From contig JAGTXO010000040.1 of NCBI GenBank assembly GCA_019448385.1, positions 248,001 to 312,000 of the forward strand: a DNA stretch of 64,000 bases, given 5' to 3'. The notes under the pieces are model-generated. The model saw only the letters and a program-made list of their open reading frames with translations, was not told the DNA's origin and did no database searches. The stretch comes from Diacronema lutheri. Taxonomy: Eukaryota > Haptophyta > Pavlovophyceae > Pavlovales > Pavlovaceae. Below, one piece after another: positions 20,057-60,460 of the stretch. A program made the position numbers and the translations under genes. Every line of letters starts with the position of its first letter. Positions within the stretch are counted from its first letter, which is position 1.

Positions 20057-23000
20057 CTGAAGGTCGGCGCGTACTGCGTGTACACGCCCGAGCAGCTGTC
20101 GCGTGACGGCAGCTCGACGTACAGGACAAAATTGGTCGAGTGCCCCGTCGTCGAGAGCACGCCCGCGCGCGATAGCGTTTTATACACCGGGCAAATGTAT
20201 ATTCCTGCGCGCGTGAGGCACAGAAGCCGTGCCGCGCGCCGCCCGCGTGAGCCGGGCCGAGCAGCGCACGCGCGGCGGCGGGGGCGCGCGGCGCGCGCGC
20301 ACCGGCGTCAGGCTTGGCGCGGTCCGGCTGCGGGTTGAGCCACACCACCGGGAACGGCTCGAAGAGCACCTTCGGCCGCGACTCGGCAAGCGCTCGCAAC
20401 TCGGTGTCCCAGCGCGCCCCTTCGATGAACATGCCGTGCACGTAGCATCCGTCAGCCGGCGCCTCCGTGATGGCGTCCGGCTCGGTCGCGATGACGTCGT
20501 ACGCCCAGCTGAGCGCGTCGATCGAGATCACCTTCTTCCTCGCATAGTTTTGCATCGTCCCCGTGAGGAAGGCCTGGATAGCGTCGCGGCGCGCGGCGCG
20601 GGGCCCTCGGGCGCGGCGCGTGCCGCGTCAGCACCAGCGCGTGCGGCACCAGCGGGCGCGGGCGCGCGTGCGCTCGGCCAGCCAGCGGCGCGGCGGCGTG
20701 GGCGGCGCGAGGGTGCGTACCTGCGGGAAGAAGAAGCCCGAGATCCAGAACGCCGGCGGCGCGCCCTGCGCGATCCACCGCGAGATGAAGGCGACGCGCG
20801 CCTGCAGATCCGCGACCCACGCGGAGAGCGGCTTGAGCGAAGGGTATGCCTTGTCGACCCAGATCTTGGGCACCTGGTTGTTGAAGATGGAGGTGGCCAT
20901 CAGATCAAGCTCCTCCGACATGACCACCAGCCCCTTGAGCGCTTTGAGCAGGTCCTGCGCGCGCCGAGAACACGCGCAGGTGCACGATGCACGCGGCGTG
21001 CGCGTGAGCAGACGCGACCCCAGCGCGCGCGCGCGTCGGCGCGCACCTGCAAGCTGGAGCGAAGCAGCGTGAGGAGGCCGTTGAAGCGCTTGCACTCCTG
21101 CGAGAGCACCGTGTTCATCGACTCGTTGTACGCGAGCGGGTACTGGCGCATCACCTGCATCGCGCCCAAAGCGGGAAAAGAAGGGGGGGGGGGGGGGGGG
21201 TGGGGATTTGAAGGGGTGTTGGGGCGGTGGGGATTTGAAAAGGTGTTTGTGGGGGGAGGGGGTTGGAAGGGGTGTTTGGGGAATGCTGAGAAGTGTTGGG
21301 CCCCAGGGCGCAGGGCGCATCGGCGCGCCTCCGCGCGGCTGACGCGCAAGCGGCGCGCGCCGGCGCGCCAGCGCGCCAGCGCGCCATGCGACGCGCGCGC
21401 GCTCACCTCGTCGATGGCGAACGTGGTGAGCCCACGGTCGAGAATGTCCTTGGCCTCATCGGCGAGGATGTCGTCGCGCGACTTGCCCTTCCCGCCCGAC
21501 ACCTTCGCCTGGAGGGAGAGGAGCGTCTCGCACATGCCGGCAGTCTCGTTCTGCGCGCGCGCGATGTCGGCGTTCTCGTGCAGGCCGAAGACCGACGGGT
21601 GCGGGTTGAGCGGCAGCTTGGCGATCGCGGCGAGGTAATCGGCGTGCGAGCCGGCGGGCGGCGATCGGTACAGCTCGCCGGGCGCGAGGGCGTAGGTGTC
21701 GGAGAGGATGTCGGCGGTCATGTACGGCGCGAGCATCGCCATGACGAGGCGGCGGTCCCAGTCGTCGGTGATCCGGCCGCCATAGTTGATGTGGCCCGTC
21801 AGGTGCTCGAGGACCTGGTACGGGACGTGCTCGTACTTCTCCAAGAAGGCCTCGAGCTGCAGCGTCGAGCACTTGAGGTCGGACGTGGTGAACTCGTAAC
21901 GGATGTTGAAACCGATCGCGCCAAACTTGCGCCGGTCCTGCACGAGCGCGTGGAAGAAGCAGGTGCCGAAGAGCAGCTTTTTAAACTCGCGCGGCTTGGA
22001 CGACTTTGTGAAATACTCGTCGCCGAGCGGCGCGTACGACCCGACGAGGTTCATCTTGACGCCGGTCGGCGGCTCGTTGGTCACCTTGGCCGAGTTCTGC
22101 AGGATGGAGACGGGGAAGAAGCGCGACGGCATCGACGTGAGCCACAGCCGGTAGTCCTTGTGCATCGTCTCAGGGTCGTACTGCTCGACGATCGCCTCGA
22201 GTCGCGGCATCCACGAGATGGCGAGGTGGCAGTTCTGCAGCATCACCCACGCGCCGCGCTCCATCGACGCGTGCATCATCTTCTCGGCGATCGGGCCCTG
22301 CCCCTGCCCGAGCGAGATCGACGCAAACTTGTGCGTCATCTTCATCTCTGCCGTTAAGTCGACGACGTGCTCCATCGGATCAGCGCCCGCCGAGAGCACG
22401 AAGACGATCGGCACGAGCTCCGTCGACTCCTTGAACGAGGCGGCGAGGTTGAAGGCGGGCGGCTCGATGAAGCGCTGGCCGATCTGCTCGGCCACAAAGT
22501 CCTGGAACCCCTGCACCAGCTTGTCGCCGCGCACGCACCGTACGACGAGCAGCTTCTGGAAGGACGAGAGCTTGTCGTCCCACGGCGCGGGCAGGCTCGC
22601 ACGGTGCGCGTCGTTGTCGTCGAAGAACGCCTTCCACGCGGGCACGGCGGCGGCGAACGACTCGGCCAGCCCGACGAACGCGGGCAGCAGCGCGAGCGAG
22701 CGCACCGACGACCACACCTGCGCGGTGACCCACGCGGGCGCCGGGTTGGGCGCGTCTGCCGCGTGGCCGAGCGCTGAGCCCGAGAGGAGGAAGCGCCACT
22801 CGTCGTGGTCGATGAGCTGCTCGCCCATGAGCACCTTGATGCACACGGTGAACGAGAAGAGCAGCTTGTGCGCCTCGAAGAGCGAGCGGCAGATGTTGTC
22901 GTAGAGCGAGAAGGTGAAGAAGTCGTTCAGGCTCGCAATCCTCGCCGGCACCGTGTCGGCCGGCGCCGAGTCGGCGATGCCGCGCGCGAAGAGCGAGACG

Positions 23001-26000
23001 AACCAGGGGAGCGAGTATTGGTACATTGGGTCGACGCGCGCCATGTCGGCCACGCAGAAGAAGAGCAGCGCCGCACGGAACGCGCACGCGCGGTACCCCT
23101 CGCGCGTCGCGTCGATGAGCTTCTCCGTCGTGCGCGCCTCGGCGACCTTCGCGTTGATCTCGTCCGAGGTGACCTTGGACTGCGCGAGGGTGTTGATGAG
23201 CTGCTCGTCGTCGAGGATGTTGCCCGAGGCCTCCGAGAGCAGCCGCAGGATCTGGTCCTCGATCTCCTTGAGCTGCTTCTGCATGGCGGCGTTCGAGAGC
23301 ACGAGCGCGTTCTTGCTCTCCTCGAGGTCGGGCCGCTCCTTCGCGACGACGATGCCGAGGAGTTGGTCCTCGAGGCCCTCCTGCGTGATCGTGAAGTTGA
23401 GCAGCGTCACCTTGACCGACGTCTCGGGCGCGTAGTGCGGGTTGGCCAGCTTGGTCGTCATGTAGAAGGTGAAGTCGGAGTGGTACGGGATCGTGTTGTC
23501 GCCAATCTTGATCACCTCCGAGCCGCTCTGCTTGAACGTCTGCTTGAGCAGGATCGGCTCGAGCGCGGGGTCGAGCTCCTCGCCAATGTTCTCGAGGATC
23601 ACCGGCTTGCCGAAGCGCACCGCGTTCTCGAGCGTGCGCAAAAAGTCCTTGTCGCTCAGCTTGACGACCTCGAGCGCGCGCTCGCGCTCCATGTTCTTCG
23701 CCCACTTGTTCGCCTGGCCCTGAGGATCGACCATGAGCGGCCAGCGGCGCGCGTTGGAGAGGATCAGCGCGTTCTCCATCGAGACCGCGTCTGACGGCAG
23801 CCCGGCGATCGCCCACTGCCGCATCTGCACGCCGTCGAGCATCGTTGCCATCAGCGTGACACCCTCGGAGAAGGGCAGGCGGAGCTCGGCCATGTGCGTT
23901 CGCCACGTCGCGCACAGGTCGGCGCGGTAGCCGGCGGTGAACGGGCCGATGTACGCGACCGACGCCGCCGCGACGAGCACGTCGCCGACGAGCGACGCCT
24001 CCGACGCGGTGAGCGCCTGCACGGTCGCCTGCCAGCGCACCTTCTCGCCGCCGAGCCCACCGAGCAGCCGGCCGGCGCGATCCATCTTGACGGTCGCGTC
24101 GTCGACCTGGCGCTGCAGCGACTCCTTCTTCGCCACCGACTGGTTGAACGAGAACTCGAGCTCGGCGATCTTGTCCTCCACCTCCTTGAGCGCCGCGCGC
24201 AGCTTGGTGAGGTTCTCGGTGAGCACGTCGAGCTCCTCCTGCGCGGCCGTGAGCGCGCGCCGCTTCGGCTCGACGTTCTTGGCGACGTGGTGGTACGTGT
24301 ACATGGCGCGCACCCACTGACACATCGCCTTGCACGACTTTGAGACCGCCTCAATCTTCTTGGGCTCAAAGTTTGGGTCGTTCATGTACGGCTCGATGCG
24401 CGACACGGTCTTCTCGGGGATGTTGTCCTTGTCGAACTGGAACATGGCGTCGAGCAGGCCCTTGGCGTCGGCGAGCATCTTCTTGCCCGGCTCCCAGTAG
24501 TTGGCCGTCTTCCCCTTGCCGTCCGCCGACGCCTCCATCTTTGGCGGGATGTTGCGGATCACGCAGATCGCCTCAACGACGAGCTTGACGCCGCCCGGCG
24601 GGTTGGCGTACTTCGCGACCTCGGAGATGTCGCTGAGCTTGAGGTCGCGCAAGCACTGCACCGCCTCGTCGAGCGCGGGCAACGCCTCCGCCAGGTCCTT
24701 CTCCGCCGAGTCCTTGATCCCCTGGCACTCCTCCGCCTTGGACGACGCGATCGCCTCCTCGCGCACGACGACCGTGCGCGTCTGGTCGGCGGCCGCCTTG
24801 TCCTTCTGGATCTGCTCCATCATCTCCTCGACCTGTGCGGCGGTCTTGATGAGCACGGGCTGCATCTCGGAGAGCTGCGTCTGCAGCGTCGCCACCTCCA
24901 CCTCGGCCGACGCGAGCTTGTCGAGTCCGGTGACGAGCCGGCGCTTCGCGAGCGCCAGCTCCGTCTGCTTGCGCGCGAGGAGCGTGCGGTACGTGCGGAG
25001 CAGCTCGAGGTACGAGGTGGGCGTCACGTAGTTGTACCGGTGGAGCTCGGCGATCATCGTCGTCGACGTCTCCTTGATCGACAAGTGGATCAGCCCCGCC
25101 ATCGAGACGATCGCCGCCTTGTGCACGTCGGAGATCTCGGCGATCGGGCCGAACGTGGCGTGCGCGACCTCGCGCAGCGCGTCGTCGGGCCACGGCATGA
25201 ACCAATCGATCGTGCAGTTGTTGACGAGCGACGGGAAGTTGCGCAGGCGCGTGCGGAAGACTTCGCCCAGCGGGCTCATCGCAATCACTAGGTGCAGGCT
25301 CGCCTGCACGCGCTTGACGAACTGCGCGTACATGGCCACCTTGGTCTGCGGCAGGCCGGCCGCGGCGCAGATCGGCCGCATCGCCGCGGCGACGCGGTTC
25401 TGGTCGTTCTCATCGAAGAGGTTGGGCACCTCGCCCGTGTTGAGGATGTTGTTGATGTCCTCGAGGAAGGACTCGTGCAGGATCTGCGTGTCGGAGAAGA
25501 GGAAGATGGTCCGCGTCGCCTCCTCGCCCGCGGCGAAGAGGAGGCGCTTGACGTCGTTCCGCCACTCGGCGCGGCCGTAGTTCTTCGAGATCTCGATCTG
25601 GAAGACCTGCAGGTCTTGGATGTAGCCGGCGAGGCGCGCAAGCGACTGCCGGCCCGAGCCGCCGACGCCGAGCAGCAGCGCGTTGCCGCCCGGCTGGCGC
25701 AGCACGCGCGAGACGCGCGCGACGTGGCCGATCGCGTCGACGAACATGACGAGCGGCATCTTCTTGATGTTGGCGGCGTTGTAGTCGCCCAGGTACTCGT
25801 CGACGACGCGCACGAGCTGCGCGCGGTCGGTGACGCGCGTGTACATGCGCGGGTCCGCGCCGGGCACCATGAAGTCGACGTAGAGCAGCAGCGAGCCGTC
25901 GGGGACGAGCTGCGTGTACTCCGTGTCGAAGCGCGCGCCGACGACGCGCCGGACGAGCGCGTCGTACCACGCGCGGTCCTCGACGGAGACGAGGCGGTCG

Positions 26001-29000
26001 GCGTAGACGCGCTCGTTCTCGTGAATCCATAGAGCGTACAGGTCGGCACTGCGCAGCACCTCCTTCGGGCTGGCGCTCAGGCAGCCCTGCATGACGGACG
26101 CCATGTCGCGCATGTTGAACGTGTAGTGCGACTTGTCGGGCGTCGGCAGCAGCTCCTTGAGGATCGTCGAGTAGATGTCGATGGTGGCTGAGACGATGGG
26201 CCGGACGGCGGCCTCGAGCTGCGGCTGCAGCGCCGCGCCGACGAACGCGCCGAGGATCGTGCCGAGGATCGTCGAGACCGACTCGTCCTGCAGCTCGGGG
26301 AAGGCGACAAAGTTGAAGTGGCGCAAGAAGCGGTTCGTCACGACCTGCCGGCCGCCGCCGGGCGGGCCCATGCAGCCGGCGAAGACGATATCGATCACCT
26401 TGCGGAACTCGAGCGTCTTGCGGTCGTACCAGCCGGCCTGGTCCATCCACTGGCGCAGCAGCTCGATCGGCGGCTGCGCGCCGTACGCCTGCCGCTTGGG
26501 CATGTTGACGTCATCGACCATGACCGCAAAGCGCTTGCCGCTCGGCGGGCCGAAGATGCCCTTGCGCCGCTTCTCGAGCTTGGCGTCGAGCAGGTCCTGC
26601 GTCTGGTTGGCCGACGTCTGCGCGGAGAAGTTGACGAAGATCGGCATGAACGCCTCCGGCATCCCGCCCATCAGCTTGTCCTTCACGTTGAGCGTCTTGC
26701 CCGTGCCCGTCGGGCCGACGCACAGCACGTGGTGCCCACCGACGAGCAGCCGCTCGAGGAGCCACATGTACCGCACCGAGTCGGTCGTTGGGACAATGAT
26801 GTCGGCGAAGGGCGTCGCGGGCGAGAGCACAAACTCTGGCATCGTCTGCATCCACGGCAGCCAGGCGTTGGTGTCGAGGTCGAGCGCGTAGTCGTAGACA
26901 AGAGCACCCTCGGCGAACGCCGCGCGCTCGCCGAGCCCGTCGCTCGCGACGGTCTGGCGGAGCCAGCTGTCGAAGAGGCGGCGGCCCTCGCCGTCGCACG
27001 CGCCGCCCACGCCCCACACGAGCGCGAGAAAGAAGGCGCGCTCCGCTGCGTCCTCGAGCAGCGCGGCCTTGTCGTCGTCGACCTCGCGCGCGCCGTCGAC
27101 GGGCACCCATTCCGACAGGCAGCGCTCGAGAATGCGCAGCGTCGAGTCGACGAGGTTGTTCGCGACGGGCTGCACGTAGTGGCGCACGTTGCGCCGCACG
27201 AAGTCGAGCGCGCGGTCGAGCAGCGAGTCGCACAACTCGAGCATCCGCGGCATCACCGACTGGACGGCGGCGGGCTGCGCGGCCGCCCACGACTTGGTCT
27301 GCGCCGCCGTGCCGACGCACGAGAGCGGCTCCATGTAGATGATGCCAACGCGCGAGACGGTGGCGGGCGAGGCGACGGCGAGGTCCTCCACCTCGAAGAC
27401 GACGTTCATGCACGGCGTCATCGCGATGATCTCGCCCGAGACGAGGCAGAGCTTCTTGTTGTCGTCGAGCACCGTGTTCATCGACTCGATCCAGAGCGCG
27501 TCGACGGGCCCGTCGAAGACGAGCCACTGCCGGTCCTCCTTGCCCAGCTCGCTGTACTCCTTGACGCAGTTGCGGTACAGCGTGCACAGGATCCCGTCCG
27601 TCCACTCGTGCGTGTTCTCGTCAAACTCGCCGTACAGCTGGCCCATCGTGATTGATTTTGGATTACACTGCGAGATGCGCACGCGGTTGTACCGGTCGAG
27701 GTGGTCGAGCGAGCCGAGCGCGAGGGCGAGCGCGTCCTTGTTGCACGACTTGCCGCCGCCCGTCGGGCCGACGAGCATCAGCCCGTGGCGCAGCACCGTC
27801 ACCTCGTAGAGCTGGATGCACTTGGCGATGAACGCGTCGACGGGCTGGAGGCCGAGCTCGGCGACGGCGCGCTCGATCGCGGAAAGGAGCTCGCCGTAGC
27901 TGGGCGCGGGAAGCTCGGCGCCGGGGAAGAGGTCGGAGATGATCCCGTTGAAGAGCGCGATGTCCTCCGCGAGGAACTTTGGCCGGTTCGAGTCGCCGAG
28001 CGCGCGGAGGAGGAGCAGGTCCTCGTCCATCTCGGGGTGGTCCCGCCGCATCAGCCCCGCGGCCTGGATGACCGTGTTGACCGCGCGCATCCCAAAGTCG
28101 TAGTGGTCCTGCGACGAGAGCTGCTCCGACGAGAGGCGGAAGGTCGCCACCATCTTGCGCGCTAGCCGGCGCGCGTCGCGGTAGCCGAACGAGTAGAGGC
28201 GAATTTCGCCGATCAGCGCGTAGTCGGGTACCATGCACGCGACGGGGCGGAAGAGCGCCTTGAGGTTGTCCGGCAGCTCGGTGCGGCCGGCGTAGCCCGG
28301 GTTCATCGTGATGAAGACCGCGTTCGTCGCGTCGAGCGAGATCTCGCTCCCCTCGAACTCGAAGCGCGTCTGCTTGGCGAGCATGGCGGTGCGGATCGTC
28401 GCGAGCTGCTGCGCGATCACCGACAGCACCTCGATGTCGATCCGGTTGAACTCGTCGAAGCACGCCCACGCGCCGGACATGGCGAGGCCCTTGAAAAACT
28501 TGCCCATCGCAATGTAGTCCAGCCCCTCCTGGCAGTTGAAGACGACGCACTGCTTGGCGAGCGCCTTGGCGAGGTCCTTGGTCGTCTCGGTCTTGCCCGT
28601 CCCCGCCGGGCCGGCGGGCGCGCCGCCGAGCATCATTGAGAGCGCGCCGGTGAGCGTGAGGTAGATGCGGTCGGTGAGAGGCGTCACGACGAGGCGCAGC
28701 GTGTTGCCCAGGTACTCGTTGCCGTACTCGAACTGCGAGTCGACCTGGATGACGAGCGCGACCGAGTCGGGCGTCGCCCAGTCCTTGATCGCGTATCGCA
28801 GCTGCGAGATCCACATGAAGTCGTTGACGGACGCGACTTTATGCTCGACCATCGCGTCGAGCACGTCGCGCGCGTGCACGTCGAGCGTGATCAGCGCGCC
28901 GAGCGACATGCGCTGCAGCGGCGTGAGCTCGCCGCGCACGAGCTCCGTCAGGTCCATCAGCGACGCGTGGTACTTCTTCGCGTACTCGCTGAGCCCGCCG

Positions 29001-32000
29001 AGGCCGCCGTCGCGCAGCGCGGCGGCGGTTTCGTCGGACCAGTAGATCCCCGCGCCGGCGAGGATGATCTGGCCGGGCCAGCTCTTCACCCACTCGGTGC
29101 GCGGGCGCGCAGTGTAGTCGCGCGCGGCCGCGTAGACCTGGTGGCGGATCGTCGCCTTCATCGTCTGCTCGACGCGCGTCATCCAGTCCTCGACGGAGCC
29201 GGTCGGGAGGAGCGGCCCGGGCTTGGCCGCGTACTCGAAAGGGATGTACTCCTTCTCGCCCGAGTACATGCCCACCATCTCGAGGTCGGGCATGAACTCG
29301 ATCGCGTTGATGTTCTCGAAGCACTTTTTGAGGTGCGGCTGCACCGCGCGCGGGTCCTTGGTCTGCGAAAGGATCTCGAGGAGCTCGTCGTTGGAGAGGA
29401 AGTAGAAGCGCGAGAAGCCCTGCCGCTTCGTCTCGAGGTAGTCGGAGAGCCCCTTCTGCACCTGGTCGAGCAGCACGTTGCCCTCGCGGAACGTGGTGAG
29501 CAACTCGCGCCGCTTGCAGAACGTGAGCGCGTGGGGGTGGTCGTGCGCGTCGCCGAGCGCCTTGCGCCACTTGATGTCGACCTTCTCGAAGCGCTTGCCC
29601 TCGGCGGGCAGCTGGCGCATGATGTCCTCCGACGAGAAGATCGGCTCCAAGTACATCCACGAGCGCTGCACCTTGAGCCACTCGTCGAAGATGTCCGACA
29701 TCGCCTTCAGCGTGCCCTCCCACGCGTCGATGCGCTCGGCGTGCGCGCGCTTGTACGGCGAGAAGGCCATCGTCTGCGTCATCACAATGTGGTCGTCCAG
29801 CTGCTGCTGGATCTCGTCGAAGCCGCGCATCACGAAGGTGCCGGTCTCGCGATATGCGACGATCTCGAGATCGACGTCCGCCCACGCGCGCTCCATCGTG
29901 TCGAGCGAGTCCTCGATCTGGAACTCCTTGCCCGCCACATCGCACTCCTTGACGATCACCTCCTCGTGCTCCTCCAGCTGCATCGCGAGCATCTTGGTCA
30001 GCGTGAACGCCTCGTCCACGACGATCGTCTTGCCCGTCGCCTCGGAGATGACCGCCCAGTGCCGCTCACGCATGCCGGGGTTGCGCAGCGCCTCGACGAG
30101 CGGCATGTGCGGCACGAACGCGGCAATCTGGTCGCGGATCGTGCGCGCAACCTCGCCGAGGCCCGCCGTGTCGGCGAAGTGCCGCGCCGACTTTGCGATC
30201 GCCTTTGCGGCCGCCTCGACGTCCTTGCGCATCCGCTCGGGGTCGAGGCGCGTGAACGGGCACGTGAGCCACTCCTGGTGCGACGCGAGCCAAGAGGCGG
30301 CGGTGGACCAGAGCGTCGCGTACGGCTCGAAGCCCTTGTTCACCTTGCCCAGCTGCGCGTAGTCGGTGATCGGCCGCGAGAAGAGCGACTCGCGCGAGTT
30401 GAATTGCGTGCGCTTCGCCTCGCATGCGTGCAGCTGGTCTTGCAGCCGCAACACCTCAGCCGCCGCGTCGCGCACGCGCGAGAGGTCAGTGAAGCGCTGG
30501 CCAAACGAGTTGACGACGCGCTCGAGCGCGTCGAGCTCCTTCCCGAACGCCTCCTGGTCGCTCAGCATGGCCGCCTGCAGCTGCTCGCGCGACTCGACAC
30601 ACTGCTCGCCCGTCTGCACCAGCCGGTCCTCCACCTTGCGGTGCCACGCGACAGAAGCCCACAGCTGGCGGAAGTCGGCGTCGGGCAGCGAGACAGCGAA
30701 CTCGTCGAGCACGGCGTGGTCGCGCTGCACCGTCTCGACGAGCGCGTGCAGCTCGTCGAGCTGCACGGGCACCGCCGTCATGTAGGTCTCTAGTTCGGCG
30801 ATCTCCTCGATGTTGCGCGGCCGGCGCGACACCTGCGAATGGATCGCGTCGAACTTTGCGTGCAGCGCGAGCGTGCCCGCGCGGACGCGCGCGCCGATCG
30901 CCTGGAGCAGGCCCGCCGCCAGCTCGCGGTGCTTCTCCGTGACGAACTGGCACACCGACGACGCGCTCACGACGAAGAGGCCAAGGTCCACCTCAGCGGG
31001 GATCGCGCGCGCCGCGTCGTCAGCCGCCGCCAGCTGCTCGCGCACGGCCGCCTTCAGGTCGGCGACGGAGAACTTGTACGCGCCGTCCTCGAGCCGCTCG
31101 TCGTAGCCGTCGATGAAGGCCGCCGCGTCGAGCGCGACGAACGGCCGGTACCCGTCAAAGGTGGCCAGCAGCGCGTCGAGCGGCGGGCGCGCGCTCGCGA
31201 GCGCCGCGCGCAGCCGCGCTTCGACGGCGGGCGGCACGCCCTCGTGCTTCGAGATGGTGACGAGTGACGGTGCGTGCGCCCAGAAGAGGTTCTCCATGAT
31301 GGCCTTCTCGAGCTGTGGGATGTCCACGCACGCGTCGACCGCCTTCGCGTGCGAGGTCATCACGACGTCGACGAACGCGCTCGGCGGCTGCCGCCACGCG
31401 ATCGCGCCCTCCTTCACGACGAGGTCAAGCAGGAAGAGAGGCGGGCGGCGCAGCGGTGGCGGCGGTGCGTGCGGGCGCGGGCGCGGCGTGGCGGCGGCAT
31501 CCGCACCCGCCTGCGCGCCCGCGGCGGCGAGCGCCGTGTTGGCGGCCGTGTCTGCCGCCTCCGCCTCCGCGGCGGCACGCGGCCGCACGCGCACGTCGTT
31601 CACGGCGCGCACGTCGACGGTGAACGAGGCGTGCGCCTCGATGTACGCCGTGTACTCGACGAGCGACCTCTCCGCGAGGAAGATGATCGCGTCCTGCATC
31701 ATGAGGCGGACGACGTGCAGCAGCTTGCGCAGCTTCGAGACGGCGTACACGCGCTCGTCCTTCTCGGCCAAGTTGAACCAGCCCTTGCCCACGTCCTTTA
31801 AATTGTGGCGCACGCCCGCCTTGAGCGCGGGAAGCCACACGTCCTTGATGTGCGCCGAGACCGTGCCGAGCGCCTGCTGCTGCGCCGTGTCGAACTCCTC
31901 GAGCCGCACGCTCTTGGCGAAGGACGTGTGCAGCAGGTTGAGCGCGGCGACGCGCAGGCACTCGGCGCGCACGCGCTGGAGTGCGCCTATCGCCTCGCGC

Positions 32001-33313
32001 TGCGAGTAGAGGGTTGCAAAGGCGAAGGCGCGAGAGTGCTCGAGCACGGCCTGCCCGTCCCCCAGCCCGTCGATCGCCACGGTGCCCCTCGCCGGCACGC
32101 GCCTCCGCTCGGGCTCTGGCGGGAGCACGACGGTCGCGAGCAGGCCGCCGCCGTCACCCGCGCTGGCCGCGCCGGCCGCGCCGGCCGCGCCGCCGGCCGC
32201 GCCGCCGGCGTGCGCGCCGCCGCCGGCGGCGGCGGCGGCCGCGGCGGCGTGCGCGCGGCGCGCGAGCACATCGAAGGCGACCGAGCACATCGCGCGCGCG
32301 TAGTCGACGCCCACCTCGTCGAGCAGCGACGCGACACCCGGCGGCCGGTCGGCGCGGCCGGCGGCGCGGCCGGCGGCGGTCGGCGGGCGCGCGAGCGCGA
32401 GCATGCGGGAGAGGCGCTCCTTGTCGAGGGCGGTGATGCCTTCGGTAGGCATCGAATCGACGTACAGCTCACGTCGCAGCAGCGCGTCCACCTCGGCGCG
32501 CGCTCGGTGCGCCGCCGCGACGCGCTTGGCGAAGACGAACGGGTCCTCGGCGGCGAAGAGCAGATCAATGCGCGCCAGACGCACCTCCACCCAGTCGTCG
32601 GCCGGCTCGGCGGCGCGCGCGCGGCAGACGAAGAGGGCGGTGGGCTCGTCGTAGCGTAGCACCTCGCACTCCACCCACTGCGCCTCGCGCACCGCGCCGT
32701 CGCGCCGCAAATACTTCGCCGGTACGAAGCGACGCTCGCCCGTCGCCGGGTCGACGCCAAGGCTGACCCACTCGTCCGGCGGGCGCGACTCGAATTCGGT
32801 GTCGTCAAAGATGGCGAGCGGCAGGCCGCCGTCGGCGAGGGCGGCGGAGGGCTCAACACCCTCGTCGATGAGCAGCTGCCGGATGTCCTGCAGCGAGAAG
32901 AGCCGCTTCTGCCGCTCGATCGTGATCTGGCGCGGCGTCCGGCCCGGGCCTGGCACGTACGGCACGAGCACCTTGGGCTCGAGCGCGCGGACGGGCGCAT
33001 CGTGCCGAGGGCCGGCGCGCGCGTGCACGCTCAGCCCGAGCGCCGCCTTCCGCCGCAGCGCGTCTTCGTCCGGCGGCGCCGCCGCAAACGCCGACGCGCG
33101 CGGCGCGTTTGCTCGGCGCGCGCCCGGCCGCGCTGCGCCGAACGCCGCGCGCGCGCGCGGCGCGGGCTTGGCGGCCGACTCGAGGCCGCCGTACACCTTG
33201 GCCACGTACTCCGGGTCGAGCGTCTCGGAGTAGAAGCCACGCTGCCGGCCGGCCGCCTCGGCCGTCTGGCTCACGCCGCTCATCCCTGTCGCCGGTGGCG
33301 ACCCGAGCTCCAT
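20005..33313 (-). CDS. DHC: axonemal inner-arm dynein heavy chain
   Basis: Five exons: 33313-21407, 21154-21047, 20954-20721, 20573-20303 and 20204-20005, giving 4239 residues. The first exon alone is 11.9 kb. Splicing joins [50 protein letters not shown] and [12 protein letters not shown], all standard at dynein C-termini. P-loops are visible in AAA1 ([14 protein letters not shown], about residue 1570), AAA2 (GPTGGGKS, about 1850), AAA3 (GPTGTGKT, about 2200) and AAA4 (GVGGSGRQS, about 2550). The coiled-coil stalk and microtubule-binding region lie at about 2770-3040. The N-terminus ([23 protein letters not shown]) resembles the DNAH1 group of inner-arm chains; the subgroup is an inference. 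It is an ATP-driven minus-end motor for flagellar bending. The start is the ATG at 33313; an upstream in-frame GTG was not used. Confidence 0.93.
21183..21200. repeat. G18 homopolymer (C18 in the dynein intron)
   Basis: The run lies in the first dynein intron (21155-21406). On the coding strand it is C18 ending about 26 nt before the acceptor, so it can serve as the polypyrimidine tract. Confidence 0.8.
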
Positions 33314-33482
33314 GGTGGCCACCCCAACCAGCCCGAGTTATAACGCCTTTTTGGGCGGTGCTTTGAAAAGCGGCGCTGCTAGGGGCTGCGCCTGCCGCGG
33401 AGTGCATCCGTGACCCCGGCGGGCCGGCCTCGCTGCAACGGCGTCGCCTGGCGAATGGCGTCCGACTTCGCCGCGTGCTGCT

Positions 33483-54568: not shown

Positions 54569-57163
54569 ATGGCGCCAAGATCGAAGCGCGGCCGGACGCG
54601 TCACGCGGTGTCTCACGAGGATGACGACGGCGCATGGCGTGACGACGACGCCTGCGCACTGCGCGCCGACGAGGCGCGCGAGGGCGAGGCCGCATTTACG
54701 CGCTATTACCGCGACGCGCAGCGCATCTGCCGCGACGCTGAGGATTGGCGCGCGCTGCTCGCGAGCCTGCGGACGCCGCTGCCCGTCTCCTTCCGAGTGA
54801 GCCGCGTGGCAGCGCGCCAGCCGGAGGTGGCCGCCGCGCTGTCGATCGCTGAGCCGCTCCTCCGCACCTCGCACCCGCTTGGCGCGCGCGGCTCGCGCAC
54901 GGCGCCGCCGGCGCGCCGCTTTGCAAGCGTGCATGGGTTGGACGCGTGGCAGCTCGGCTGCGATGCGCGCGCGCTGCGGCAGGCGGCCAAGCACGCGCCC
55001 GAGTCGGCGCTCGCGGCGCTCGGGCGTTGGATCATCGAGCACAACGCCTCGGGCGTGCTCACGCGCCAGGAGCTCGTCTCCATGGTGCGGCGCGCCGCCG
55101 CGCGTAACGCCGCGCGCCGCTCCGCGCAGTGCTCCGCCCTTCACGCCGCGCGCCACCGCGCGCCGCGCGCCGCGCGCCGCGACAGATACCGGTGGCGTTG
55201 CTTGAGGTGCAACCGGGGCAGGCCGTGCTCGACTTGTGCGCCGCTCCCGGATCCAAGTCAACCCAAGCGCTCGAGGCGCTTCTGTCGCCGCCGCCGCCGG
55301 CCGCGCGCCTCAGCCGCGGCGCCGGCGGCGCGCACGCGGGCGTGCAGCCGGCCGACGGCTCGGCGCAGCCGAGGTCGGAGCTGGCGCTCGCGCGCGGTGG
55401 GTTGCTCGTCGCCAACGAGCTCGACGGCGAGCGAAGCCACACGCTCGCGAATCGTTGCGCAGCGCTCGGCGCGGCGTGCGCGGCGCTCGTCGTGACCGCA
55501 CAGCGCGCACAGACGATGCCGCTCGCGAACGGCTGCGGCCAATTTGACCGCGTGATCTGCGACGTGCCGTGCTCGGGCGATGGCACCTTCCGCAAGTGCG
55601 TGCCGCGCGCCATGCCGCTGCGCGCTCGCGACCGCCTGGCGACGTCGCACTGTGGTGCAGTGGGAGGCCTTTCGACTGTATATACGTCGTGCGCGCGCGC
55701 CGCGGCCGACGACGCGCCCTGTTTCCGCGCCACGGCGCGCGCGCCTCGGTGCGCAGGTACCCGGACAAGTGGTCGCACTACGAGCCATATATTGGGCGTA
55801 CGCTCCACGCTCTTCAGCTCCAGATTGCGCTGCGCGGCGCGGCGTCGCTCGCTCCCGGCGGTCTCATCGCCTACTCGACGTGCTCCCTCAACCCCCTCGA
55901 GAACGAGGCGGTCGTCGGCGCGCTTGTGAGGCGCGCACGCGCCGCGCCGCCTTCGCGCGCGCGCGCGCGCGCGTTGCGCATGCGCGCACCATCGTGGCGC
56001 TCGCCGCGCGCCTCGCTCCGCGCAGATCCGAGCGACGGGCGGCGCGCTCGAGCTCTTGGACGCGGCGAGGCGCCTCGACGGGCAGCTGGTCACGCGGCCG
56101 GGTCTGACGAGCTGGAAGGTTCTCGACGACGCGGACCAGCCTCTGCAGAGCCACGCGCTCGTGCGCGCTGCCGCCAGGCGCACGGGCTGCGCGCACGGCG
56201 CGCGCTACCGCGCGTCCATGTGGCCCGCGGACGCTGCTGGAAACGACCTCCGGCGGTGCGCGCGCACCGGGCGCGCGACACGCGACACTCGCGCGCGCGT
56301 GCGCCGCGACACACGCCTGCGCGCGATGCGCGCCCGCGCGTGCCGCGACACGTGCCTGCGCCCTCGAGCCGCCGCACACGCGGGCGCCCTCGGCCATGCG
56401 CGCATGTGCGTGCGCCTACCGCCAACTTTCTGCCTCAAGCCCACCCACCCACCCACCACCCGCCTTGGGCGGCTGACACATGTGGCGCTCTAATCCGAAC
56501 CCTAACCCTAACCCTAACCCTAACCCTAACCCCTCGCGCAGATGCGTACGGCTACTGCCGCACGACAATGACACTGGCGGGTTTTTTGTCGCGCTGCTGC
56601 GCAAGCGCGCGCCATGGCCGCCGCCTCGCGTCGCGCGGCGAGTGGTGCCGTCGTCGCCACCCTCACTGGAGCCGCATGTTCAGTCAGCGCTCCTTGTCGA
56701 GGGCGGCGCGGCGGTGCGCGCGCTTTCTCAGGCACAGCTCACTGACCTCCGGCTCGAGGCGCCCGCGCTCCGGCTGCTGCTCGACGCGCTGGGCGGGGGT
56801 GCGCTGGGCGAGCGCGGCTGGCTCGTGCTCTGTGAGCGGTCGTTGCGCGCCGTGGGCGCCGGGGCGCGTAGCGAGCGCGAGCACGCGCCGCGCAGGCTTT
56901 TCCTGTGCACCGCGCGGGCGGCGAGCATCGTCGGCGCGGCCCCCGAGCTGGCCGGTGGCGAGCGCCCTGCCGGCGTCGATCGGCCGCTACGTGCCGTTGC
57001 GATTGGCGCGTGCGTCGCCGTCCGCCGGCGCGTGCGCGCCCGGCCGCGGCGTGCGGGCGCAGCCAATGCTGGCGGTGGCGTTAAAGGGGGAAGCGCGCCG
57101 ACCTCGGAGTGGCTGCTGACGCCTCTCGGCGCGCGCGTCGCCAGGGCTGAGCCTCCAGGCTGA
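54569..57163 (+). CDS. NSUN2: NSUN2/Trm4-type RNA cytosine-5 methyltransferase
   Basis: Five exons: 54569-55084, 55186-55595, 55757-55925, 56026-56255 and 56542-57163, giving 648 residues. Junctions rebuild conserved stretches: LVSM/IPVALLEVQPGQ, DGTFRK/YPDKWSHYE and LRR/CVRLLPHDNDTGGFFVALL. The SAM motif is VLDLCAAPGSKSTQ. The release cysteine is in CDVPCSGDGTFRK, and the catalytic Cys is in YSTCSLNPLENEAVV. WKVLDDADQPLQSH matches the PUA-adjacent NSUN2 segment. The enzyme makes m5C in tRNAs, using SAM, in nucleus or nucleolus. Intron 4 (56256-56541) ends in a run of CCCTAA telomere-type repeats directly before its acceptor. The C-terminal half of exon 5 is Ala/Arg-rich and less conserved. 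An upstream in-frame GTG was not used. Confidence 0.9.
56498..56533 (+). repeat. CCCTAA telomere-type array at the 3' end of an NSUN2 intron
   Basis: Five perfect CCCTAA units (56500-56529) followed by CCCC lie inside intron 4 and end 8 nt before the CAG acceptor (56539-56541). The array supplies several CTAAC branch-point matches and the pyrimidine tract. It is identical to the TTAGGG-type telomere repeat on the other strand. Confidence 0.9.
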
Positions 57164-57248
57164 GACCTTTTCAGCTTTTTCTAATTATTCCTATTTCTTG
57201 AAATACGTTTTGCCTACCTTGATAGCTTGAATCTTCGACGTCCGCAGG

Positions 57249-57566
57249 ATGGCCGCGTCCGCACCTGCCGGCGGCCAAGCGGCAGCCGAACATCACAATG
57301 CTTGACCGTGCGACGACGACTTGCCAATGCTCGGTTTGGACGCGGACGCCGAAGCCGGGCAAGCGGCCTCACAGACGTGCGCTTCGTCCGTCGCTGGCTT
57401 TTGGAAGCGGTCGGCGCCCTCCGCGCTAAACCCCAAAGGCGGGCGTGGGCGCGGGCAGAGCACGCTCGAGTACGTCGTGGCGGAGTGCAGGTGATACGCG
57501 AATTACATCGTGCCCGTCGTCGCGATCAACGCGCTTGTCATCGTCTTGCTCATCCTTCTGCTCTGA
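57249..57566 (+). CDS. small tail-anchored selenoprotein (in-frame UGA, downstream SECIS)
   Basis: Frame starting at 57249 or 57327 and ending TGA at 57564-57566. From ATG 57327 the product has 79 residues with Sec at position 56, encoded by TGA at 57492: GQSTLEYVVAECR-Sec-YANY. An uncharged helix (IVPVVAINALVIVLLILL) then runs to the stop, so the TGA sits just before a C-terminal membrane anchor. The motif is Cys-Arg-Sec. The codons after the TGA keep the high-GC third-position bias of genes here and give a clean hydrophobic helix, which argues for real coding. The ATG at 57249 has a better context (A at -3, G at +4) and is in the same frame. It would include a second in-frame TGA at 57303 (NA-Sec-PC) and give 105 residues. 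No intron can skip the 57492 TGA, since no AG lies between it and the helix. A form-II SECIS begins 42 nt downstream. The family is not recognised. Confidence 0.72.
57492..57494 (+). other. in-frame TGA predicted to encode selenocysteine
   Basis: This TGA keeps frame with the open sequence on both sides. It lies 72 nt before the terminating TGA and about 115 nt before the SECIS quartet, which meets the spacing needed for recoding in eukaryotes. Confidence 0.75.
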
Positions 57567-57594
57567 CGTGCGCATGTGCTGCACGGCTGTAGCG

Positions 57595-57675
57595 CGCTGA
57601 TGCGCCCGTGACCGTGCGCCTGCAAAAGCTGAGGTTCCGCTCAGAGCGGGCGCCCGTGATTGCGCGTCCGTGTGC
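57595..57675 (+). promoter_or_regulatory. SECIS element (form II)
   Basis: All core features can be paired by eye. The 5' quartet is GTGAC (TGAC at 57609-57612) facing TGAT at 57657-57660. Helix II is CGTGCGCCTGC (57613-57623) paired with GCGGGCGCCCG (57646-57656), with one U/C mismatch and one G-U pair. Exactly 11 nt after the quartet comes the unpaired AAAA (57624-57627). An apical mini-stem CTGAG/CTCAG (57629-57633 with 57640-57644) closes a GTTCCG loop, the form-II arrangement. A lower helix can form between GCGC at 57602-57605 and GCGC at 57662-57665 with a small internal loop. SECIS elements recruit SBP2 and the Sec-specific elongation factor to recode UGA. Confidence 0.9.
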
Positions 57676-57728
57676 ATGCATTGTAGTTTCACTAGTCATC
57701 CGTGCCAGACGCAACGGCGCCAGTTTCA

Positions 57729-57757
<29 letters not shown>
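57729..57757. repeat. G29 homopolymer
   Basis: An uninterrupted run of 29 G lies between the SECIS and the 3' end of the minus-strand kinase gene. It is a likely replication-slippage site and a G-quadruplex former. Confidence 0.85.
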
Positions 57758-57768: not shown

Positions 57769-59211
57769 TCACGCTGTCGCGCACGAGAGACCCTCCCTCT
57801 CCCCTTCCCTCCCCTCCCCGAGGAGCTCGGCCAGGAGCTCGGCCAGTCGCTCGGAGACGCGCCGAGCGTCCGGTCGCTCGCGCGCGTCGAAGGCGAGGCA
57901 GTCGCGCATGAGCGCACTGAGTGGCGCGGGCGTGTCGGCGGGCAGTGGCGCATGATCGAGCGGGCTCGTGCCCGAGGCGGCCGCGCGCATCATCTCCGCC
58001 TCGGCCAGGTTGGCGTACGGGAGGGCGCCGGCGGCGAGCTCGTACAGCAGCGCGCCGAAGCTGTACACGTCCGCCGCGCACCCGCAATGCACCGCCCCGT
58101 CCGCGCCAAGCAGCTCGGGCGCCATCCAGCCGGGCGTGCCGATGCCGAGAGAGTCTGACTCATTGGCGGGAAGCACGCACGCGCTTCCAAAGTCACACAG
58201 GAGCGCGGAGGCGGCGGGCGCGGCGCGGCCGGTGGCGGGGTCCGCCGCGCTGAGCAACACGTTGGACGCCTTCACGTCGCGATGCAGCACCGGTGGCTGC
58301 AGGCTGTGCATGTGCTCGAGCGCGGCGCACACGTTGAGCGCGCGCCGCACGTCGCGCGCCCATCGGCTGCGCGCGGGCTGCGCGGCCGGCACCGCTGGAG
58401 CTCGGCGCGCGTCGATGCGCTCGTCGCGGCCGACGCCGACGTCTCCGCCCGTGCCCACCGCGCGCCCCGCGTTGTGCACGTCGTCGTGGAGCGAGCCTCC
58501 GGCCGCCCACTGCAGCACGAGCATCCGCGGCGCGCGCGCGGTCGCGCCAAGGAAGCGAACAATGGAGCGGTGCGCGCCAAGCGAGCTGAGCATCAGCGCC
58601 TCCGCCGCGTGCGTCGCCTCGCCCTCCGCGTCCTCCGGAAACACCTTTGCGACGGCCTCCATGCCGCGCCAGGTTGCGCGCGCGCACCGCGCGTACGACG
58701 CGCGCGCGCGCAGCGGCTCGCCGAGCGTGACTTTGAGCGGGTCGATCAGGTGGCCACGAGCGGCGAGGGACTCGACGAGAGACGAGGCGGGCGGCGGCGC
58801 GCCGCCGCGCGCGCGGCCGTCCGCGCTGGCGGCCGGCACTGCGTGCCGAACGCTCCACGGCGCGCGACGCGCGAGCGCGAGCGCGAGCGAGCGCGCAGCG
58901 CCGTACGACGCGTAGACGGCGGAGACGATTGCATACCGAGCACGCACCGACACCGAGCACCTCGCGCGCATCGCCTCGGCGCTCCGCCGCGCGTACACCT
59001 CTCGTGCGCGCGCGCCGAGCCAGCACGCCGTGGTGCGTGAGGCGCTCAGCCCGCGCCGGAGCCCGACGCCTGCCTTGGCCGTAATGCGCGGCGCATGACC
59101 CACGAGCGATGGCCTGGCCGATCGCACAGGCGAGCGCGGGACGCGCGAGATCGCCGGTGAGCGCACCGGCGAGGACTGCCCGTCTCCCTGTCGTTCACGA
59201 GCGGTCTTCAT
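57769..59211 (-). CDS. TKL-like serine/threonine protein kinase
   Basis: A single frame with ATG at 59211 (MKTARERQGD) gives 480 residues. The kinase domain is in the C-terminal two thirds. The conserved Lys is in EAVAKVFPED, then VLQWAAGGSLHDDV, the catalytic loop VLHRDVKASNVLL, CDFGSA, and GIGTPGWMAPELLG, followed by AADVYSFGALLYELAAGALPY and ERPDARRVSERL. The Gly-rich loop is poor (VTLGEPLRARASYARC), so ATP binding may be atypical although Lys, Asp and DFG are intact. The pattern GTPGWMAPE plus DVYSFG is typical of tyrosine-kinase-like kinases. The first 130 residues are Ala/Arg/Ser-rich and hold a weak hydrophobic patch. Substrate unknown. Confidence 0.85.
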   Translation of the reverse strand: MKTARERQGDGQSSPVRSPAISRVPRSPVRSARPSLVGHAPRITAKAGVGLRRGLSASRTTACWLGARAREVYARRSAEAMRARCSVSVRARYAIVSAVYASYGAARSLALALARRAPWSVRHAVPAASADGRARGGAPPPASSLVESLAARGHLIDPLKVTLGEPLRARASYARCARATWRGMEAVAKVFPEDAEGEATHAAEALMLSSLGAHRSIVRFLGATARAPRMLVLQWAAGGSLHDDVHNAGRAVGTGGDVGVGRDERIDARRAPAVPAAQPARSRWARDVRRALNVCAALEHMHSLQPPVLHRDVKASNVLLSAADPATGRAAPAASALLCDFGSACVLPANESDSLGIGTPGWMAPELLGADGAVHCGCAADVYSFGALLYELAAGALPYANLAEAEMMRAAASGTSPLDHAPLPADTPAPLSALMRDCLAFDARERPDARRVSERLAELLAELLGEGREGEREGLSCATA

Positions 59212-59257
59212 CGATGACGACGTGAAACGGCAATGGCGTGAGGTGGAGCAGCGCAAA
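59212..59257. promoter_or_regulatory. 46-bp divergent start region
   Basis: The start codons of the TKL-like kinase (minus) and the alpha/beta hydrolase (plus) are separated by 46 bp, so transcription units must overlap or share a minimal promoter. Confidence 0.45.
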
Positions 59258-60460
59258 ATGCTGTCGCACGCGGCGAACGAGCTAGTGTGGCTCGCCCTCT
59301 ACCTGGCGCTCAGCGCCGTCCTAGGCATCTTCGCCCTACCCGTCTGCCTGGCGCTCATGGCGCTCGCCTTTTTCGTCGCGTGGGCGTGGCTGCTCGCCGG
59401 CCGGCTGTCGACAAGGCTCGACGCGCCGCGGCTGCGCGAGCCGGCGATCCCAGAGTTCGAGCAGCGCACGTGCACGAGCCACGACGGGCTGGTGCTCTCA
59501 TACGCCGTCTCCCGTCCGCGTGCGCCCGACGGCGCGCCGGCCGCCGCCGCGGCCGGCGTCGAGCCGCGCAAGTGCGTGCTGCTGTGCGAGCCCCTCGGCC
59601 AGTCCGGCCCGCTCGTCTTCGCGCCGCTGCTTGCGACGCTCGGTCCAGAATACGTGTTCGTCACGTGGGACTATCGCGGCTTCTTTAAGAGCGCGCTCCC
59701 GCAGCGCAAGCGCCGCATCTCCATCTCCGCGCACGCCGACGACGCCGCGACCGTGCTACGCGCCGCCGGCTTTTCGCGCGCGTCCATCTGCGTCGGCCAC
59801 TCGCTGGGCGTGCAGGTGGCGCTCGAGCTGACGCTCTTGTGGCCGGAGCGCGTCGAGCGCCTCGTCTTGCTCAACGGTTGCGCGGGCCAGGCCTTCCAGA
59901 CCGCCTTCCAGCCCGTCGTGAGGCTGCCGCTGATCGGGACGGCGACGCGCGAATTCGTGCGCGCGCTGCAGCGCAGACCCGAACGCTTCTACGCGGCGCA
60001 GCCGCTGCTCGCGCCGCTGCTGCGGCACGTGATTAGCCCCGTGTTCTGCGCGCTCTTCGGCTCGCCGCTGCTGCGCCGCGTGCTCGGACCAAACTACCTG
60101 TACGCCTTTTGGCGAGATTACATGGCGGGGCTCGACGCCTCGCGCGGCCCGCACAACCTCGAGCACTTCCTCCTCTCGTTCCTCGAGATCGACGCGCACT
60201 CGGCGGCGCATCTGCTCGACAAGATCGACCAGCCCGCGCTCGTCATCTCGGGCATGCTCGACCTGCTCGTCCCAGCGCTCGTCTCGGCCGAGATGGTCGC
60301 GCGGATGCGCCGCGCCGAGCACCGGTGCGACCCCCTCTCGACGCACTCGACGCTGCTCGAGAGCCCCGAGTGGGCGCTGCACCACATCCACCGCTTCCTC
60401 GCGCGCACGTCGAGCCTGGATCTCGACGTCGCAAGCCAGATGCAACGCAAGTCGCTTTGA
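59258..60460 (+). CDS. membrane-anchored alpha/beta hydrolase
   Basis: ATG at 59258 gives 400 residues. One or two hydrophobic segments lie at residues 10-55 (ELVWLALYLALSAVLGIFAL and ALMALAFFVAWAWLLAG), a membrane anchor before the catalytic fold. The fold shows LLCEPLGQSGPLVF, VTWDYRGFFKSALP, the nucleophile elbow VGHSLGVQVALE (Ser), LVLLNGCAGQAF, VISGMLDLLVP with the likely acid Asp, and HSTLLESPEWALHHIHRFL with the likely catalytic His. This is the layout of epoxide-hydrolase/lipase-like ABHD proteins. No lid signature identifies a substrate; lipid or ester hydrolysis at a membrane is a fair inference. An upstream in-frame GTG was not used. Confidence 0.85.
   Translation: MLSHAANELVWLALYLALSAVLGIFALPVCLALMALAFFVAWAWLLAGRLSTRLDAPRLREPAIPEFEQRTCTSHDGLVLSYAVSRPRAPDGAPAAAAAGVEPRKCVLLCEPLGQSGPLVFAPLLATLGPEYVFVTWDYRGFFKSALPQRKRRISISAHADDAATVLRAAGFSRASICVGHSLGVQVALELTLLWPERVERLVLLNGCAGQAFQTAFQPVVRLPLIGTATREFVRALQRRPERFYAAQPLLAPLLRHVISPVFCALFGSPLLRRVLGPNYLYAFWRDYMAGLDASRGPHNLEHFLLSFLEIDAHSAAHLLDKIDQPALVISGMLDLLVPALVSAEMVARMRRAEHRCDPLSTHSTLLESPEWALHHIHRFLARTSSLDLDVASQMQRKSL

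Follow-up and report, generated by a model that had tools for sequence, protein, structure and literature searches.

Does a TGA within an open frame of Diacronema lutheri encode selenocysteine (Sec), and if so, what kind of protein would the gene produce? The frame contains, in order, ATG 57249, TGA 57303, ATG 57327, TGA 57492 and a stop TGA at 57564-57566, all on the plus strand and numbered within the window, which is the whole stretch of 64,000 nucleotides that was analysed. The window has a GC content of 72.5% and is localised on contig C17 of the genome that we searched (43,492,796 bases in 103 contigs); the assembly of Diacronema (Pavlova) lutheri NIVA-4/92, sequenced with PacBio and polished with Illumina data, is described as having 103 contigs, 43,502,671 bp and 73.25% GC (PMC8379373). 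Upstream, on the same strand, is an ORF (55548-57119) matching the RsmB/F-type RNA methyltransferases (28.1 bits; cut-off 27), in whose region an interstitial telomere-like repeat of five CCCTAA units was found (56500-56531); downstream is a protein kinase ORF (57769-59298) on the opposite strand. An AT-rich stretch on the plus strand (57165-57248), probably a promoter or 5' UTR, directly precedes the first ATG, and the 100 bases 5' of ATG 57249 have 43% GC, compared with 55-76% before five control genes. The 3' end of this stretch (CCGCAG/G) resembles a splice acceptor. Our analysis indicates that the candidate is probably a real and working orphan gene for a tail-anchored selenoprotein, with a predicted Cys-Arg-Sec motif at the membrane surface and an anchor that would depend on Sec insertion.

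Form-II SECIS elements are defined by an RTGA/GA quartet, a helix II, an unpaired AA some 11-12 nt further on and an apical mini-stem. By this definition, the plus-strand segment 57608-57660 is a form-II SECIS. Its core reads GTGAC CGTGCGCCTGC AAAAG CTGAG GTTCCG CTCAG A GCGGGCGCCCG TGAT, with a GTGAC...TGAT quartet, a helix II of 10/11 pairs interrupted by one U.C mismatch, AAAA 12 nt after GTGA, and an apical mini-stem of 5 bp (5/5 pairs) with a 6-nt loop. The hairpin had originally been predicted at 57609-57660 with AAAA 11 nt after the quartet, a distance that agrees with ours when counted from GTGAC. Around the core, a helix I of 7 bp (GATGCGC / GCGCGTC) extends the fold to 57599-57668. 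The core begins 116 nt 3' of TGA 57492 and 44 nt 3' of the predicted stop, which would place it in the 3' UTR. The region 57597-57672 folded with -36.0 kcal/mol and a shuffle z of -3.28, none of 200 shuffles being as good; the longer stretch of 134 nt (57567-57700) gave a weaker z of -1.73, with 12/200 shuffles as good. In the unconstrained minimum-energy fold some quartet bases were also paired, as is usual when folding programs deal with non-Watson-Crick quartets.

No SECIS match was obtained with Rfam at the candidate, either at the gathering threshold or at E<=10. The SECIS_1 model (RF00031) gave zero matches in the whole genome, the control selenoprotein genes included, so that its failure at this locus says nothing about the hairpin; annotation relying on Rfam would hence overlook the SECIS elements of this genome, in which there are ten or more selenoprotein genes. 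A run of about 29 G closely 3' of the SECIS (57729-57757) attracts many spurious Rfam microRNA matches.

A covariance model (R1) was built from five SECIS cores of control genes (SelM L047, GPxB L004, Rdx L010, SelW-like L009 and Sep15 L048), with the candidate excluded, using a five-row alignment (A4) in which the loops were padded with N by hand; a four-row version (A3) was left unused. A MAFFT alignment of the elements (A1) had been rejected as misaligned, and an N-padded alignment of seven cores (A2, 54 columns) left no row free of gaps; GPxA and SelT were therefore taken out and served as held-out tests. When 207,505 bases from 45 sources were searched with R1, the candidate scored 29.9 bits (E 8.7e-6 for that search space), below the training elements (35.2-57.4 bits) and above the held-out control elements GPxA (26.3), SelK-like (22.9) and SelT (19.1). 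The top false match, antisense in L044, reached 19.6 bits and the next best within the window 14.9; the SelT element thus lies at noise level and the candidate 10 bits over it. Scaled to 43.5 Mb, about 0.002 matches of the candidate's score would be expected, by a rough calibration. For L044 and L045, among the ten control genes, R1 gave no match in the 3' flank. Rejection by a covariance model had been named in advance as a result that would speak against the SECIS, and R1 did not reject it.

The geometry of the element was also examined by means of a strict pattern (RTGA, AA 12 nt on, at least 10/11 helix pairs, 5/5 mini-stem pairs and a terminal YGA), which was defined after the SelM and candidate elements were both known. 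In the real sequence examined (197,827 bases, both strands) it occurred at two places, namely the SelM SECIS and the candidate. Random sequence contained no instance, either in 82 Mb generated by a first-order Markov model and read on both strands or in 4,060 Mb read on one strand, where relaxing the helix to 9/11 pairs gave three places; since random sequence is devoid of real inverted repeats, these counts bound only the chance arising from composition. The simpler motif RTGA-N12-AAAA, which represents just the 5' part of the element, had 237 + 237 places in the genome against 119 + 151 in the reversed control, a count that was given no weight as evidence. The SECIS of the SelM-type gene L047 (PF08806) and that of the candidate share a 53-nt core and have equal helix II, loop, mini-stem and 3' quartet positions, whereas L047 begins with ATGA rather than GTGA and has a helix II of 11/11 rather than 10/11 pairs; the two proteins show no relatedness, the candidate being without a Pfam match. 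ATGA starts the quartet in 7/8 control elements, while the Sep15 element of L048 has GTGA, as does the candidate, and in Ostreococcus tauri a G at this position is described for all but one of the SECIS elements (PMC2375036). The distance of 116 nt from TGA to SECIS is longer than that of the SelK-like gene (72 nt) and shorter than those of four other controls (393-633 nt).

The use of selenium by the host, which the original prediction had taken from general knowledge of haptophytes, is borne out by the gene content of its genome. The Rfam tRNA-Sec model and ARAGORN agreed on nine tandem tRNA-Sec(tca) genes, arranged on the minus strand of L011 at 1009-2684 (G000:C19, ~158964-160639) with a period of 184 bp and 96% matches between copies. 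Since most eukaryotes carry just one or two tRNA-Sec genes, the array looks like an amplification of this gene, or else an assembly effect. Profile searches detected a TGA inside 2/5 GPx matches (of the other three, one is the second exon of a gene counted among the two), inside 3/4 Rdx matches and inside 4/5 Sep15/SelM matches, the fifth again being a second exon. The SelK-like gene L051 (G000:C9) has an in-frame TGA at 1678 with two codons between it and the stop, so that the protein ends in GGUGS, and a SECIS at 1750-1797 that was found by R1; its PF10961 score of 19.9 bits is below the cut-off of 23.3. In total, an in-frame TGA was counted in ten genes belonging to known selenoprotein families, the locus names SelT, SelW-like and SelK-like being assigned from the domain match plus the motif, and none of 53 thioredoxin-domain matches had an internal stop. 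That the host decodes Sec is supported by the tRNA-Sec array together with these ten genes. One of the SelM-type genes (L044, G000:C76, minus strand) combines an in-frame TGA with a C-terminal extension that is long and includes a hydrophobic stretch; no SECIS was recognised within the 3' flank that was examined.

Coding potential on both sides of TGA 57492-57494 was evaluated by codon log-odds, for which 30 thioredoxin-domain matches of the genome and the dynein ORF 20900-33337 served as the training set; an earlier training set of five long ORFs was discarded, as four of them had a position-wise GC unlike that of the dynein gene. The 23 codons of the tail (57495-57566 with the stop, plus strand; YANYIVPVVAINALVIVLLILLL) scored +20.7 bits, the top value of the six frames, and an 18-codon window spanning the TGA scored +12.3 bits, showing that the coding signal crosses this codon. 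The frame runs from 57327 to 57566 through the TGA into a hydrophobic C-terminal helix, as had been proposed. The preceding segment (57327-57491, plus strand), which would form the soluble N-terminal part of a 79-residue product, is an open frame of low complexity ending in ...LEYVVAECR. Its third-position GC (GC3) is 0.82, and 17/18 over the codons directly 5' of the TGA (57438-57491); its codon log-odds of -7.3 bits, with a synonymous part of -11.2, counts against coding. With the discarded training set the same segment and the tail scored -3.6 and +16.7, respectively. Among small genes of this genome, the SelK-like gene is also low, with 7.6 bits over 84 codons, compared with 63.7 over 80 codons for the SelW-like control.

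In the 105-residue form, 19-residue windows with a hydropathy above 1.6 started only at residues 81-87, with a maximum of 3.17. When we surveyed 2,704 TGAs in the six frames of 30 loci and the window (two pairs of loci overlap, so a few TGAs were counted twice), 1,178 led into a run of at least 20 open codons that ended in a stop within 100, and among these only TGA 57492 had a 19-residue window with a hydropathy of at least 3.17. As in tail-anchored proteins in general, a single hydrophobic helix lies at the extreme C-terminus and no other membrane segment is present, so that the tail anchor of the original prediction is supported as a feature of the sequence; unlike in those proteins, the predicted anchor would be translated only if the UGA is decoded as Sec. 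The 30 residues before the tail include six positive and two negative ones, which fits a cytosolic N-terminal side.

The weak codon signal before TGA 57492, together with the absence of a homologue within the collections searched (prokaryotes, viruses and the genome itself), would agree with a chance or decayed ORF beside a SECIS-like hairpin, any translation of which ends at 57492. We consider such a non-functional locus improbable, because the strict SECIS geometry was absent from the random sequence, within the bound that this sets on compositional chance, and because a tail that was the only one of its kind among 1,178 is accompanied by a SECIS in the right order and at a normal spacing.

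Splicing was considered as another way of disposing of the TGA. There is no AG dinucleotide between 57495 and 57590, and hence a GT-AG intron cannot excise TGA 57492 while retaining the tail; the possibility of the TGA being spliced out with the tail kept was therefore rejected, and the earlier claim that no AG could serve this end holds in that sense. The sequence CAG/GTGATA at the TGA is donor-like, and with AGs available at 57591, 57627 and further on, an intron starting at GT 57490-57491 could delete both the TGA and the tail, giving a product with neither Sec nor anchor. This seems very unlikely, as it leaves the hydrophobic coding tail and the SECIS without explanation. Reading of TGA 57492 as Sec, on the other hand, is supported by a SECIS whose geometry and score match the genome's own elements, by a host with tRNA-Sec and selenoprotein genes, by coding across the TGA and by the lack of any splice event that would rescue the tail.

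The position of the start codon affects how many Sec residues the protein may contain. Initiation at ATG 57327 would give 79 residues with one Sec, whereas initiation at ATG 57249 would give 105 residues and needs TGA 57303 to be decoded as a second Sec. The original prediction had allowed for both lengths: the shorter stands as proposed, and the longer carries this additional requirement, which had gone unmentioned. Accordingly, the stretch 57249-57326 (plus strand) may be an N-terminal extension containing U-P-C, if TGA 57303 is Sec, or a 5' UTR with a short upstream ORF. A start at ATG 57249 with both TGAs read as Sec, yielding a U-P-C near the N-terminus and a C-R-U at the membrane, is favoured by the shared open frame and by the Cys that stands two residues away from either TGA; the context of this ATG, with A at -3 and G at +4, is also suitable by the Kozak rule, and algal proteins with several Sec residues have been described, such as MSP (two) and PDI_e (three). 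We regard this two-Sec protein as rather unlikely, the first 18 codons from 57249 being non-coding-like (GC3 10/18, -11.3 bits). The N-terminus may thus belong to a product of 79 residues with one Sec, to one of 105 with two, or to an upstream exon beyond view.

The candidate protein had no family match in Pfam up to E 10 and none in NCBIfam or PDB, which bears out the statement that it does not match SelK, SelS, SelT/W, SelM or Sep15. No relatives were found in its own genome or in phages, and none was confirmed among 56 pattern matches in viral contigs and 594 in contigs of prokaryote genomes; given that the sets searched were prokaryotes, viruses and the genome itself, in addition to the general Pfam and PDB, this absence says little about other haptophytes. 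Membership of the SelK and SelS families was rejected for lack of a match to PF10961 or PF06936, the genome having a separate SelK-like gene at L051, and that of the thioredoxin-fold families (GPx, SelT/W, Sep15/SelM) for lack of a match to PF00255, PF10262 or PF08806, the genome's members being elsewhere. In SelK (SELENOK) and SelS (SELENOS), the membrane helix precedes a C-terminal Sec. Like them, the candidate would be a small single-pass membrane selenoprotein with a soluble part, but its Sec precedes the only helix, so that truncation at Sec, which leaves the anchor of SelK and SelS in place, would remove it here. The protein looks like one with no recognised relative and an unusual order of parts, as predicted from its frame: Sec, the only membrane helix, and the end.

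By description, the candidate also has a likeness to MSP of Ostreococcus, Chlamydomonas, Volvox and Dictyostelium, which is predicted to be a membrane protein containing two Sec residues, in an account that also gives three hypothetical selenoprotein families (PMC2375036). MSP, which we compare by its description alone, would resemble the 105-residue form in both respects, and the candidate frame, with its two TGAs and a membrane helix, might accordingly come from a diverged member of MSP or of one of the algal 'hypothetical' families, likewise compared by description; we hold this to be unlikely. No tail-anchored CxU protein is among the three entries as described in PMC7539508, which reports 96 selenoprotein genes in Emiliania huxleyi. 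The titles and abstract openings among the literature matches listed contained no tail-anchored selenoprotein of the candidate's kind.

Taken as a tail-anchored selenoprotein gene, the locus suggests how its product could be made and act. The SECIS in the 3' UTR would recruit the eukaryotic Sec machinery, UGA 57492 would be read as selenocysteine, and translation would continue into the 23-residue tail, giving a protein of at least 79 residues that may insert by its tail into a membrane, probably that of the ER, given the high hydrophobicity of the anchor. The presumably cytosolic part would bear Cys-Arg-Sec at the membrane boundary, where Cys and Sec most likely pair in a reversible selenenylsulfide and so provide the membrane surface with a redox or peroxide-reactive site. 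As the UGA lies before the only anchor, failed Sec insertion would leave a short soluble fragment; Sec insertion would be coupled to anchoring, and the supply of selenium should control the membrane form, no such form being predicted from this anatomy when selenium is missing. More speculatively, the candidate could represent a new family with a selenium-gated tail anchor, in which a Sec codon borders the only helix and selenium switches the product between a soluble fragment and a membrane redox protein, possibly with a second Sec (U-P-C) at the N-terminus, an idea that we put forward with considerable reserve.

With the candidate, a lineage of large selenoproteomes would gain one more probable selenoprotein, for which no relative has been recognised. 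Small genes of this type are readily overlooked, since gene finders end the frame at the TGA and searches led by homology depend on relatives. Finally, R1 also scored the SECIS of the SelK-like gene, which lies below the Pfam cut-off, suggesting that a genome-specific model could help to find further selenoproteins.
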